Of a DNA stretch of 36,027 nucleotides, positions 5,782 through 35,937 are shown piece by piece (within the stretch, counting starts at the first letter, position 1; each line of letters begins with the position of its first letter). The translations under genes were made by a program, and so were the position numbers. Source of the stretch: a virus. The notes under the pieces were generated by a model. That model ran no database searches. It was not told the DNA's origin and saw only the letters and a program-made list of their open reading frames with translations. The DNA is taken from IMG/VR virus record IMGVR_UViG_3300031578_000169, positions 1 through 36,027 of that record. One strand, 5' to 3'.

Positions 5782-5940
5782 ATGGCCAACGACCCGCGCA
5801 CATGCGACACCGATGATGTCAAATTCATTGACTGGAACGACGTGGTCTGGGCGCAGCGGTCCGAGATTGGCCGCCTGGGGGTGATCACGGACCCGACCAT
5901 CGAGTCGGCAACGACCGAACGGACCATCGAGGCCACGTAA
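5782..5940 (+). CDS. small phage protein, unknown
   Basis: 52 residues (MANDPRTCDTDDV start), with a purine-rich GGGAGAGACGATAG leader upstream of the ATG. The product is acidic with two Trp in IDWNDVVW. It lies 18 bases after the beta-helix gene and 9 bases before the next gene, in the same direction, so it probably belongs to the structural operon. No family is recognised. It could be a small head or connector protein. Confidence 0.5.
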   Translation: MANDPRTCDTDDVKFIDWNDVVWAQRSEIGRLGVITDPTIESATTERTIEAT

Positions 5941-27395: not shown

Positions 27396-27702
27396 GGTTC
27401 CCCTCCAATGGCTTAACATCCGGCCTAAATTCACAAAATTTATTTTGCCAATGAAATAATGACTGAACAGCTTTTTTTGCTTCATCCGAGCATTCCGAAA
27501 CATCGAGGCGGGTGATATGACAAATCAGTTGCCACACCAAACGATCATCCACTTTCGCATTAAATGAACCACACCAGAGAGGCCAACATGAGAAATCGAG
27601 ATTCGCTCCCCTGAGATTCGCTCCCCCGAGATTCGCTCCGCTCAAGATTTCAATGTCAATTACCTTAATCACTTCTTGGGTAAACCGATTTATGATTTTC
27701 AT
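27382..27702 (-). CDS. pentapeptide-repeat-containing small protein
   Basis: 106 residues from ATG 27702, with GAGGAG upstream. The N-terminus (INRFTQEVIKVIDIEILSGAN) leads to three to four repeats of the A(N)LxG type (GANLGGANLRGANLDF), the start of a right-handed quadrilateral helix. The repeat run is very short. The remainder contains WPLWCGSFNAKVDDRLVWQLI, as in small phage and host proteins of unknown function. Confidence 0.6.
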   Translation of the reverse strand: MKIINRFTQEVIKVIDIEILSGANLGGANLRGANLDFSCWPLWCGSFNAKVDDRLVWQLICHITRLDVSECSDEAKKAVQSLFHWQNKFCEFRPDVKPLEGNHESL

Positions 27703-31141: not shown

Positions 31142-31981
31142 GTGGCGAATCCTCAGCTAGAGAATGGCTATACGAGTATTGCCAACGGCATATTTGAGCA
31201 TCTGGCCAAGCTACGTATTCCGGGTGAAGCGAGGCAAGTCCTCGATTTCATCCTGCGGAAAACGTGGGGCTGGCACAAGAAATCAGACATGATTTCCTTG
31301 AATCAATTCGTAGAAGGAACAGGGCTGAACAAGGTGCATGTATGCCGCGCCATCAATACCCTCCTCGCCATGAATCTCGTTACCAAAAAAGGTAACGCTC
31401 GATTTCACGTTACCCAAAAAGGTAACGCTTCAGAGCTAAGTTATGGATCTCAAATGAATTTTAACAAATCACAAGCGTTACCCAAAAAGGTAACGTCCAC
31501 TTCCCATATTACCCAAAAAGGTAAAGCCACAGCCGCAACCTACGAATTTCAAAAGGATTTTGAGAAATGGAAGGCATTACCCAAAAAGGTAAAGGGTGCT
31601 TTTCACGTTACCCAAAAAGGTAATCGGACGTTACCCAAAAAGGTACCCACAAAAGAAACTATTACAAAAGAAAAAAAGATATGGGCGGGATCGAAAAAAC
31701 CCGACCCGCCCAACACGGCTTTTTTTAAGATCTGGGATCAGAAATTTCAAGAGCATGCTGGAGCCCGATACACCTTCACAGGGCAAAAGGAAACACAGCT
31801 CGTCAAGAAAATGATCGCCACCGACTCTCTTGAGCGGTTGGCTGAGTTGATCGATGTCTTTTGGAGGATTGAGGATGACGAGTTCATAAACCGAGCGGGG
31901 AGAACGATCGGTGTTTTCTATTCTCAGATAAACAAACTCAAGACGGTCGAGATAGACCCATATAAGGAATTCAGAAAATGA
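31142..31981 (+). CDS. replication initiator, phage O-like
   Basis: 279 residues from GTG 31142. NPQLENGYTSIANGIFEHL, IPGEARQVLDFILRKTWGWHKKSDMISLNQFVEGTGLNKVHVCRAINTLLAMNLVTKKG is the lambda-O-type N-terminal DNA-binding domain. The central 85 residues are coded by the iterons. A C-terminal domain from about residue 185 may contact a partner helicase or loader. Its stop overlaps the next start (ATGA), as lambda O precedes P. The protein probably binds its own iterons and opens the DNA. Confidence 0.8.
   Translation: MANPQLENGYTSIANGIFEHLAKLRIPGEARQVLDFILRKTWGWHKKSDMISLNQFVEGTGLNKVHVCRAINTLLAMNLVTKKGNARFHVTQKGNASELSYGSQMNFNKSQALPKKVTSTSHITQKGKATAATYEFQKDFEKWKALPKKVKGAFHVTQKGNRTLPKKVPTKETITKEKKIWAGSKKPDPPNTAFFKIWDQKFQEHAGARYTFTGQKETQLVKKMIATDSLERLAELIDVFWRIEDDEFINRAGRTIGVFYSQINKLKTVEIDPYKEFRK
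31379..31647. repeat. seven iterons (probable replication origin)
   Basis: Seven near-identical 18-bp palindromic repeats with consensus GTTACCCAAAAAGGTAAC start at 31379, 31409, 31477, 31508, 31576, 31607 and 31630. They alternate reading frames: four encode VTQKGN-like and three encode LPKKV-like peptides. Spacings are 30, 68, 31, 68, 31 and 23 bp. Like the lambda origin, they lie inside the initiator gene. Confidence 0.8.
31648..31681. other. AT-rich segment next to the iterons (possible unwinding element)
   Basis: The 34 bases after iteron seven are A-rich (AAAAGAAACTATTACAAAAG). In lambda the AT-rich unwinding element flanks the O-binding sites in the same way. It is coding sequence here as well. 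Confidence 0.45.
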
Positions 31982-33528: not shown

Positions 33529-33843
33529 ATGAAACCCATTATCAGAGACGAGCGAATGAACGGGATGGAAGCCCGGTATGCCCACTTGCTCAGCCTACGG
33601 CAAAAGGCAGGAGAGATTCTTGGCTGGCGCTTCGAACCCTTCGGCTTGAGGCTGGCTAAGCTGACCTATTACCATCCTGATTTTCTTGTTGTATTCCCTG
33701 GCCACTTCGAGATTCATGAGGTTAAGGGCTTCTGGCGAGAGGATGCCCGCGTAAAGATCAAGGTGGCGGCTGACTTGTTCCCCTGGTTCAAGTTTGTGGC
33801 TGTGAAGAGCGAGCGGGGACGGTATGTGTATGAGGAGTTTTGA
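33529..33843 (+). CDS. DUF1064 family PD-(D/E)xK nuclease-like protein
   Basis: 104 residues. MEARYAHLLSLRQKAGEI, then RLAKLTYYHPDFLVVFPGHFEIHEVKGFW with a PD...ExK signature (PDF, E, K), followed by ARVKIKVAADLFPWFKFVAV. This is the DUF1064 family of small phage proteins with an endonuclease-I-like fold, often in replication or recombination operons. It may resolve branched DNA. Catalytic residues appear intact. Confidence 0.8.
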   Translation: MKPIIRDERMNGMEARYAHLLSLRQKAGEILGWRFEPFGLRLAKLTYYHPDFLVVFPGHFEIHEVKGFWREDARVKIKVAADLFPWFKFVAVKSERGRYVYEEF

Positions 33844-33873: not shown

Positions 33874-34497
33874 ATGTGGAATGAAATCAAGGTCAAGATG
33901 GAGTTTGAGGAGAAGCTGTGTGGGTCTGTGCCGCAGAGCAAGGAGCTTGTCAGTGCCTGGTTGAATGCTCGAAAGCCGAAGACAAAACCCAAAGATGCGA
34001 AGCCCTTGGAGGAGATCGAGCAGGAGGTCTTGGATTCGATCCAGGATGCTGAAGAGCGAACAACGCTATCCTTTGAGAGAAATGACCGGGGTTTTTTTGT
34101 ACGGGGAGGAACAATCAAGGCGCACTTGAAAGACTGTGCCAACCAGATCAAGGATGTGGTGGGGGTCAAGGCGTTCCGCTCGAAGATTGCGAATAAGATT
34201 CACGTTTTGGAATACCATATTTATCTGCATAAGAATGGGTCTTGTGTGATGGAATCGGATGGCTCTTTTGAGCAACCCGTGCATGTCATGACACCGCTTG
34301 GTCCGCGCAACGCCCTGAAGGTGATCCACTACGTGGAACAGGCGACGTTGGAGTTCACATTGAAATTGCTTGAGGACAAAGAAGTTAAACCCGGCAGGAT
34401 CGAGAAGCTGTTCGAGTATGGCTCTATCCATGGCTATGGCGGGGAGCGTGGCATGGGCGAGGGACGGTACAGATACACCCTTGACGTCGAGCTCTGA
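33874..34497 (+). CDS. phage protein with RAMP-like features
   Basis: 207 residues, ACGGAGG upstream. Belongs, by sequence style, to a family of conserved phage proteins: N-terminal KVKMEFEEKLCGSVPQSKEL, middle FFVRGGTIKAHLKDCANQI, C-terminal EYGSIHGYGGERGMGEGRYRY. The RGGTIKAHLKD stretch and the Gly-rich end resemble RAMP proteins (Cas5/Cas7-like), where such motifs bind RNA. The TGNNN array starts in its last codons. The RAMP assignment is an inference; no catalytic residue is claimed. Confidence 0.5.
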   Translation: MWNEIKVKMEFEEKLCGSVPQSKELVSAWLNARKPKTKPKDAKPLEEIEQEVLDSIQDAEERTTLSFERNDRGFFVRGGTIKAHLKDCANQIKDVVGVKAFRSKIANKIHVLEYHIYLHKNGSCVMESDGSFEQPVHVMTPLGPRNALKVIHYVEQATLEFTLKLLEDKEVKPGRIEKLFEYGSIHGYGGERGMGEGRYRYTLDVEL

Positions 34498-34816
34498 AAT
34501 GCGGTGATCTGGCGTGGCATGGCGACGAGGAATGGGATGATTTGTTTTGACGTGCCGTCGGGTTCTGAGGTGCGGTGGTATGGGGTGACGCCGAGTTTTG
34601 GTCTGAAATGTCGTGTTGTGCAATGGCGGCGAGAAGTGGGATGGTATGAGATGAGCTGCCGTCGAGTTGTGACATGAGGTGCTTTGAGATGCCGTCGAGG
34701 AATGACGTGTATTGACGTGGTATGGCGACGAGGTCTGATTTGCATTGGGCTGCGATGTATTGACGCCGAGTGGTGAGGTGACATGAATTGGCACGTATTA
34801 TTTTGGTTGACGAGGT
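34482..34816 (+). repeat. nine-unit TGNNN / NCGAGNNN array, noncoding
   Basis: Each unit is TGNCG, NCGAGNNN (one unit has CGGG), then four or five TGNNN pentamers, giving 33 or 38 bases. Unit starts: 34482, 34520, 34553, 34586, 34624, 34657, 34690, 34723, 34761. TG recurs with no exception for 48 pentamers until 34793, after which the end decays to a degenerate tenth CGAG (34811). The triplets differ in every unit. All + frames contain many TGA stops, so it is not translated in that direction. The region holds no gene on the + strand. Confidence 0.85.
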
Positions 34817-34824
34817 GAACCATA

Positions 34825-34950
34825 ATGACACTCAAATTCAGGTGCAAGAAGTGCGGGGCATACCAGGAGCACAAGGTCTATGATATCCCTGACGCGGTCA
34901 GGTGCCAGTACTGCAAGGCGGTGAATAGACGATTCAAGGTTGAGGCATGA
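34825..34950 (+). CDS. 41-residue zinc-ribbon protein
   Basis: MTLKFRCKKCGAYQEHKVY followed by RCQYCKAVNRRF: two CxxC pairs 20 residues apart. The RBS (GAGGTG) is the degenerate last CGAG of the array. Too short for most gene finders. Possibly part of the array locus. Confidence 0.55.
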   Translation: MTLKFRCKKCGAYQEHKVYDIPDAVRCQYCKAVNRRFKVEA

Positions 34951-34966
34951 TGGGGTCCAGGATTCT

Positions 34967-35731
34967 ATGAAAAGAAATGAAGCATTATGGACAAAATTGG
35001 TATGCTCGGAATGTGGGATATCATTTGAGCGACCCATAAGATATTTGACGGAAAAGCAAAAGAAGGGGATAGCGAAAGTTTACTGTTCTCGCCGTTGCAA
35101 GGATAAGGGAGAACGGGCTGCCGTTTGCACCAAATGTGGTTCGCCAAATATAAAAAGAATTCCACCATGGAACAGATCTTATTGTGAGAAGTGTTTTAAG
35201 GAATGGAGAAGAGATAATCGAAAGTTGTGGTTTGTTTGTGATTGGTGTGGGAAGAGAGAGAGATTGAATCCTTGCTATAAACGTATAAAGCTCTTTTTAT
35301 GTAAGGACTGCCGAGCCAAGAGTAAGTGTAATAAGCGTACACACTACTTTATCTGTGAATATTGTGGTGTCCAATTCATATCAAAGAAGAAGAACAGGAT
35401 CTATTGCTCTTCTGCATGCGCGGGATCGCATAATTTGAGTATTCTAATAGGACCTCAGTTATTCTGTGTTGATTGTGGAATTGTCTTAGAAGGGAATAGA
35501 ACTCACAAAAATCTTAGTCATCCTGTCTGTAATCTTTGTATGTATGAGAGAAAAACGAAGTACAAAGACAAAGCCACATATGGTGAGTTTTGGAGGATAG
35601 CACAAAGGGCTAGGGTTATCACAATGTTAAGTATTCTCGGGGAAGAAAAACTAAATGGAGGCAAATCATGTCTAAGAGTGTATCCAATTTGGAGAATGGT
35701 ATTAAGAAGGAAATACGAATTAAGACTTTAG
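34967..35731 (+). CDS. multi zinc-ribbon protein
   Basis: 254 residues from ATG 34967. Five successive Cys-pair modules: CSECGISFERP/CSRRC, CTKCGSPNI/CEKC, CDWCGKRER/CKDC, CEYCGVQF/CSSAC and CVDCGIVLEG/CNLC. The C-terminus is helical and basic. It is richer in A and T than its neighbours, which suggests recent transfer. Similar recombination-related HNH or zinc proteins sit near phage packaging genes; no nuclease motif is visible here. Confidence 0.65.
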   Translation: MKRNEALWTKLVCSECGISFERPIRYLTEKQKKGIAKVYCSRRCKDKGERAAVCTKCGSPNIKRIPPWNRSYCEKCFKEWRRDNRKLWFVCDWCGKRERLNPCYKRIKLFLCKDCRAKSKCNKRTHYFICEYCGVQFISKKKNRIYCSSACAGSHNLSILIGPQLFCVDCGIVLEGNRTHKNLSHPVCNLCMYERKTKYKDKATYGEFWRIAQRARVITMLSILGEEKLNGGKSCLRVYPIWRMVLRRKYELRL

Positions 35732-35937
35732 AAGATTTGCTCAATCTCAATCTAAACACCTTGGAAGAAGTTGTCAATGGGCAGATTGATAATCGAAAGG
35801 CGGCTCTCATATTCACAGGATCAAGGACCGTTACAAGCTCGTTGAAAGTTGGATTGGAAGCCATGAAACTTGGGCTAGTCAAAGTTGCGGGAATGCCTGT
35901 TGGGAATACAGCACAATTAATTGAAAAGAGCAAATGA
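35668..35937 (+). CDS. small helical phage protein, unknown
   Basis: 89 residues, RBS GGAGG, overlapping the preceding gene by 64 bases in another frame. SNLENGIKKEIRIKTLEDLLNLNLNTLEEVV and KVGLEAMKLGLVKVAGMPVGNT are helical. Proteins of this kind often lie just upstream of terminase small subunits; the following 90 bases to the window edge are noncoding and AT-rich, then GC-rich. Confidence 0.55.
   Translation: MSKSVSNLENGIKKEIRIKTLEDLLNLNLNTLEEVVNGQIDNRKAALIFTGSRTVTSSLKVGLEAMKLGLVKVAGMPVGNTAQLIEKSK

Follow-up and report, generated by a model that had tools for sequence, protein, structure and literature searches.

In type I and type III CRISPR-Cas systems, Cas7 subunits grip the guide RNA at regular intervals, with one base flipped out at each. 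Class 1 loci carry near-identical 25-36-nt repeats with spacers, together with further cas genes (Cas5, Cas6, Cas10/Cas14 and Cas1/2), and the type III-E protein Cas7-11 (gRAMP) joins its Cas7 domains in a fused multi-domain chain of more than 1000 aa. In TIGR-Tas, Tas proteins with a Nop domain are accompanied by arrays that alternate 8-12-nt edge/loop repeats with 9-nt spacers (PMC12045711). A short repeating RNA motif is also described for TRAP, for which 11 (G/U)AG RNA repeats bound by repeating subunits are reported (PMC4027176).

Here we describe a phage locus in which the gene for a predicted Cas7-like RAMP protein runs directly into an array with a 5-nt step. The DNA analyzed (the window) is the complete IMG/VR record IMGVR_UViG_3300031578_000169, 36,027 bases in length, and its gene content is that of a temperate tailed phage, with an integrase, a DNA methylase, a UvrD-like helicase, replication protein O and a minor tail protein. 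The features of the locus are collected in Table 1. Two tandem repeats were observed elsewhere in the window: one of period ~99 and 2.5 copies (31378-31623) lies within the replication protein O gene (31142-31981) and encodes repeated ITQKGK-like linkers, and the other is a 15-bp tandem present three times (27597-27639, CGAGATTCGCTCCCC), whose minus-strand frame reads as repeated GANLGGANLRGANL (pentapeptide-repeat-like).

Table 1. Features of the RAMP gene and pentad array, in positions of the window
Feature	Position	Strand	Evidence
Solo Cas7/Csm3-like RAMP protein gene (predicted fold), 207 aa	33874..34497	+	AlphaFold2, Foldseek, VIA-align, family A2 alignment
TGNNN (pentad) array, 9 boxes TGNCGNCGAGNNN spaced by 4-5 pentads, units 33 or 38 nt	34482..34816	+	spacing, lag statistic
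First box TGACGTCGAGCTC, within last codons of RAMP gene	34482..34494	+	sequence, spacing
First pentad run, 5 pentads; initial TGA is the stop codon	34495..34519	+	TG spacing
Second box TGGCGACGAGGAA, a typical box	34520..34532	+	TG spacing
Small protein of the two-helix family, 89 aa, divergent member	35668..35937	+	clustering, HMM (E 0.008)

The initial annotation had called the 207-aa product RAMP-like and had named structure prediction against Cas7 and Csm3 as a check. Run on the protein, this check returned a Cas7/Csm3-type predicted fold over its whole length. The AlphaFold2 model, built from a 44-member family alignment (A2), has a pLDDT of 91.9 and a pTM of 0.85, and all of its top 50 Foldseek matches are CRISPR RAMP chains, with type VII Cas7 first (E 3.9e-8) and Csm3 and Cmr chains next. 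Structural alignment with VIA-align gave Z scores of 13.4 for type VII Cas7 and 12.6 for Csm3, spanning residues 1-207, and about 10.5 for Cas7-11/gRAMP; these comparisons cover Foldseek-ranked entries with a predicted model as query, and absence from that listing rules out no other fold. The model thus has the RRM/ferredoxin-like fold that defines the RAMP superfamily (Cas5/6/7).

Single-sequence searches against Pfam, PHROGs and the PDB returned nothing useful; none of the Pfam RAMP models matched, and the PDB sequence search gave no match to Csm3. Searched member by member, the family matched Csm4 models weakly (PADLOC, 12 of 44 members, best E 0.0005; NCBIfam, 15 of 44, best E 0.012), as it did Cas6 and Cas5 family models. 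Seven residues (H84, K86, C88, G187, R192, G197 and Y199) are invariant in the 44 sequences of A2, three of which (G187, R192 and G197) fall in a Gly-rich loop near the C-terminus, HGYGGERGMGEGRY, that aligns weakly with that of Csm4. In the loop after the first strand, the position of the catalytic Asp in Csm3-type proteins, inspection of the model by eye finds a two-helix insertion instead (helices 23-33 and 45-54). By its predicted fold, the 207-aa protein is therefore a RAMP that lies outside every named RAMP family tested. A ribosome-binding-like GGAGG site sits immediately 5' of the gene.

An array that starts in the last codons of this gene and runs on in the same direction had been noted from the sequence, and the coordinates agree: the first box begins at 34482, the stop codon TGA opens the first pentad (TGAAA), both lie on the plus strand, and the array follows the gene without a gap. 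Each unit consists of four or five TGNNN steps and then the 13-nt box TGNCGNCGAGNNN. Boxes start at 34482, 34520, 34553 (variant CGTCGGG), 34586, 34624, 34657, 34690, 34723 and 34761, and the 3' end degrades into ...TTGACGAGG at 34816. Between 34480 and 34830, 38 TG dinucleotides are followed by the next TG exactly 5 nt on, compared with at most 6 in 320-nt windows of the minus strand. The lag-5/10 match statistic of the array is 8.2; it never exceeds 3.7 in 300 shuffles that preserve dinucleotides, or 2.7 in the rest of the window, and the pattern TGNNN x4 + TGNCGNCGAG has 7 matches in the record and 0 in the control. Tandem Repeats Finder reports nothing at the array because only two of five letters are constant; the best 33-nt copies within it are 64-79% alike.

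Other explanations of the repeated stretch were considered. A stem-loop array of the CRISPR or TIGR type was rejected, as the array matches nothing in Rfam and shows no excess folding: no conserved hairpin was found, and over 35 arrays the folding energy is the same as that of shuffles (mean z 0.13). A protein gene on the minus strand was set aside, since a 5-nt step keeps no reading frame; TTA, CTA and TCA are absent from TG-rich DNA, which explains the long open frames on the minus strand. No terminator-like site was found on the plus strand between 33000 and 36027, and gene and array are likely to share one transcript.

Association of the gene with such arrays extends well beyond the window. 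Homologues of the protein were found at more than 50 loci, every one in viral or phage records: a scan for close relatives gave 4 viral loci with arrays in all (L001 and L002 being near-identical), and a profile scan gave 51 viral loci. Whether homologues are followed by similar arrays was the second check named in the initial annotation, and at 48 of 49 distinct loci (5 distant ones included) the gene is flanked by an array of 5-nt period or by one unit or more, the contig of the 49th ending there. A lag-5/10 score above 5 occurs within 1.5 kb of the gene at 44 of the 49, compared with 0.06% of 7872 control windows. Among the remaining loci, L002 and L219 score 4.8 and 5.0, L004 and L184 show one or two units by eye, and the L206 record ends 188 nt past the gene.

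The same linkage was recovered from the opposite direction. Two scans of IMG/VR for the array pattern, blind to protein sequence, returned true arrays, nearly all of them adjoined by the gene; one contig recovered in this way (L013) proved to carry the gene and to be locus L220 of the profile scan. In every case the strand with the TG pattern is the one that encodes the RAMP protein, and the array lies upstream of the gene in L179 and L225. Loci L198, L211 and L217 have two arrays each, one upstream and one downstream. Arrays vary in size between about one unit in L004 and more than 20 in L185. No gene accompanies two of the arrays, L019, which starts at a contig end, and L015. The latter is a clear pentad array at 1317-1786 on the minus strand of a 43-kb viral record in which no RAMP homologue was detected, and it is either an orphan array or a case in which part of the genome is missing. 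A single-sequence scan of a bacterial genome collection found no homologue, nor did a profile scan of 118 genomes run without a positive control, and a pattern scan of genome contigs gave no dense array among the matches listed.

Comparison of clades separates what is fixed in these arrays from what varies. The anchor in GC-rich phages is YG rather than TG. Relatives from gut phages, 27% identical (L222, L223, L224 and L225; records MT835513, MT835520, MT839334 and MT835477), keep the 5-nt step with only the G fixed, and the first three of these records have unit periods of 31, 36 or 41. An isolated phage, Microcystis phage Mae-JY09, encodes a homologue with 24% identity (WWT39994.1), and the region after its gene has a C-rich 5-nt step that scores 5.4 against a shuffle maximum of 2.5 and is less clearly resolved. 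In its record (PP395641.1, 37713-38976), the C-rich 5-nt periodicity after WWT39994.1 carries no annotation and continues to the end of the record. The 5-nt step is the constant, and anchor letters differ from one protein clade to the next.

The letters between the anchors are nearly free. Over 1817 pentads, Y is present in 95% and G in 98%, and the three NNN positions have entropies of 1.99, 2.00 and 1.82 bits, with a composition that tracks the genome (r 0.61 with flank GC). Whole units turn over as well. L186 and L190, whose genes are 84% identical, have no unit in common, and the related phages L215 and L216 have three in common, in order, while the others differ, so that units appear to behave like separable cargo. 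Tandem duplicates indicate that part of this turnover is ordinary repeat dynamics: units are duplicated internally in L221, L183 and L185. At 5867 and 5948 of L221, where units are duplicated in tandem, the NNN of one pair are identical and those of another nearly so.

One unit, CAC-TTG-TCG-GCG-AAG-TTT-TCG, is present in five phages (L191, L201, L202, L219 and L232) whose RAMP genes are about 66-77% identical where aligned and whose other units differ. Among the copies of this unit, 1 of 21 NNN columns varies, compared with 5 of 12 YG anchor columns (Fisher p 0.016). The reverse pattern would be expected were the NNN filler, and this one unit is the best evidence that the NNN may carry information.

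Few other genes recur at these loci. All ORFs within 6 kb were clustered across 44 loci, and overlapping-frame clusters aside, only the RAMP gene, a small two-helix protein and a large-terminase-like family (at 10 of the loci) recur; no recurring nuclease or second Cas subunit was found. The two-helix family adjoins the RAMP gene or array in about 30 of 44 loci, and its product is a likely candidate partner. Its L215 relative is modeled by AlphaFold2 as two helices (pLDDT 84.6); assignment as a Cas11-like subunit was dropped, a helical hairpin being too generic to support it. Individual loci have further neighbors. In the window, a small PD-(D/E)XK/Holliday-junction-resolvase-like protein (33532-33843; PHROG 190, E 1e-15) is encoded directly upstream of the RAMP gene, and a 263-aa protein with many Cys pairs (34940-35731) has weak HNH matches (PHROG 1271) and no Pfam match. 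A VRR-NUC-like frame is readable after the L215 array and also before the L015 array.

Targets for the NNN letters were sought at several levels. The NNN of 108-290 units, compared with their own locus DNA at gaps of 0-4 in forward and reversed orientation, gave no excess over shuffles, and no target was found in large parts of the gut-phage records, in the Microcystis-phage record, in the window, or in sister-phage genomes (gaps 0-4). The five-phage unit has no target in its own records with up to 3 mismatches or in 497 bacterial genomes (297 of one phylum and 200 of another) with up to 2; in IMG/VR, exact and relaxed patterns of it matched arrays only. Two units common to L215 and L216 matched only those two arrays in IMG/VR, and all units searched against 3.5 Mb of other DNA gave nothing above chance except array-to-array matches. 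At the sensitivity used, pairing of the NNN that regulates the phage's own genes is unlikely. Because the scans were mostly exact, the lack of a match does not refute guiding.

Set beside the known systems, the locus appears to work most like a class 1 effector backbone. With the Cas7 and Csm3 subunits of types VII and III-A it has in common the predicted full-length fold, the Gly-rich C-terminal loop, a gene beside an array, and a unit length that changes by register steps. It differs in its step, which as read from the DNA is 5 nt in all clades examined rather than the 6 nt of Cas7, and in its sequence-fixed anchors; it is a single small gene, found in viral and phage records only, and CRISPR repeats, Cas5, Cas10, Cas14 and Cas1/2 are not conserved nearby. 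In place of near-identical 25-36-nt repeats there is only a degenerate 13-nt box and the 5-nt step, and no further class 1 genes (Cas5, Cas6, Cas10/Cas14, Cas1/2) were found within 6 kb in 44 loci. The Cas7 domains of Cas7-11/gRAMP are joined in one long chain, whereas the single 207-aa domain here would have to polymerize. TRAP has a fold different from that of RAMP proteins. It resembles the present system in having a short repeating RNA motif, which is bound by repeating subunits in TRAP and proposed to be so here, and differs in that the motif here is YGNNN (UGNNN) with boxes, in many variable units that turn over, beside a protein of predicted RAMP fold. As in TIGR-Tas, a phage-borne protein lies beside a compact array without CRISPR repeats, and the TIGR-Tas guide, discontinuous and made of two 9-nt spacers (PMC12045711), can be likened to the discontinuous guide proposed below. 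The predicted RAMP fold, the 5-nt pentads and the single box type are different, and Pfam finds no Nop domain in the 44 members (an unrelated weak 'NOP19' match only). By the defining features tested, the system is neither CRISPR-Cas nor TIGR-Tas. A search of the open-access literature found no published description, though one may exist in preprints (bioRxiv) or subscription papers.

That a ribonucleoprotein of phage origin is encoded here, as first suggested from the sequence, is well supported by predicted fold and linkage, from which we infer that the protein holds RNA; a RAMP-RNA complex is highly probable. The observed spacing, one or two fixed letters in every 5 nt, fits a filament of Cas7 type with a sequence-fixed register, leaving three or four letters per step for a target. 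We somewhat favor the view that gene and array form one system, in which a lone RAMP protein of Cas7 type and the RNA of its array make up a discontinuous guide complex. Gene and array would be co-transcribed, and many copies of the protein would polymerize along the array RNA, as Cas7 does on crRNA, but advancing 5 nt at a time. A fixed YG (only the G in other clades) would be gripped by each copy, and the RNA itself would thus set the register. The box (YGN[C/A][G/T]NCGAGNNN) would end one unit and start the next, and is probably a site of RNA cutting or a filament cap. The free NNN of a unit, mostly 4-8 triplets, would face outward and together form a discontinuous guide, pairing with a complementary target three nucleotides at a time and skipping two in between. 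The complex may silence what it binds or bring in a further enzyme; no nuclease gene is conserved alongside. The further suggestion that the system is RNA-guided has indirect support: the free NNN, the turnover of units and the one unit with conserved NNN speak for it, the lack of any target found speaks against it, and we put it slightly on the side of probable. Also weighing against the proposed mechanism are the dependence of the conservation test on one unit in five phages, the tandem duplicates, the absence of a conserved nuclease or second Cas subunit, and the L015 array, for which no RAMP gene was detected.

A rival reading is an unguided RNA filament. The RAMP protein may coat the array much as TRAP coats its RNA, regulating its own operon or downstream genes or serving as a scaffold, with the NNN as filler. 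In its favor, a short fixed motif recurring every 5 nt resembles TRAP, array folding does not exceed that of shuffles (mean z 0.13), the NNN take on the base composition of the surrounding genome (r 0.61 with flank GC) and no target was found. Fillers should drift while anchors stay, however, and the five-phage unit shows the reverse; whole-unit turnover and the range of array sizes would be unexpected of a fixed regulatory site, and coating needs no variably spaced boxes. We therefore regard an unguided filament as rather unlikely, though worth keeping in view.

Two further readings seem improbable. One places the function in the DNA, with the array as a double-stranded landing site for replication, packaging, partition or transcription that presents TG every half helical turn. 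The 5-nt step is indeed near half a DNA turn, and 10 of the 44 loci have a large-terminase-like ORF no more than 6 kb away, but the linked protein has a predicted RNA-holding Cas7 fold, array and gene keep a constant relative orientation, unit lengths of 33, 38, 43 and 48 nt would not stay in phase with the helix, and the content of units changes between phages. The other, to which we give equally little weight, is a decoy against CRISPR, in which the RAMP protein and array imitate or poison host type III or VII complexes. RNA-based anti-CRISPRs exist, the system has so far been found in viral records only, and the predicted fold is nearest to type VII and III-A backbone subunits. Against this, box and unit are unlike any Rfam family and there is no near-identical repeat, the family is far from Csm3 in sequence, and a decoy would need neither the array length nor the variety of NNN.

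Returning to the RNA-guided RAMP-array system, we see an even chance that it represents a new RNA-guided class in phages, in which one Cas7-like protein polymerizes on RNA in a 5-nt register set by a G (or YG) at every fifth base. Each guide would then be discontinuous, 3 or 4 readable letters alternating with 1-2 anchor letters, and neither CRISPR repeats nor a second Cas protein would take part. If so, phages would carry a minimal guide-RNA system consisting of one 207-aa protein and a repeat-less array, with a guide code unlike any known in that the anchor letters lie inside the guide. Such a system would show what a lone Cas7 filament can do, would bear on the origin or the descendants of class 1 CRISPR effectors, and could offer a very compact starting point for a programmable RNA-binding tool. 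Should it prove unguided, a predicted Cas7-like protein tied to a 5-base RNA code would be an undescribed and testable putative ribonucleoprotein across diverse phages, including the isolate Mae-JY09.
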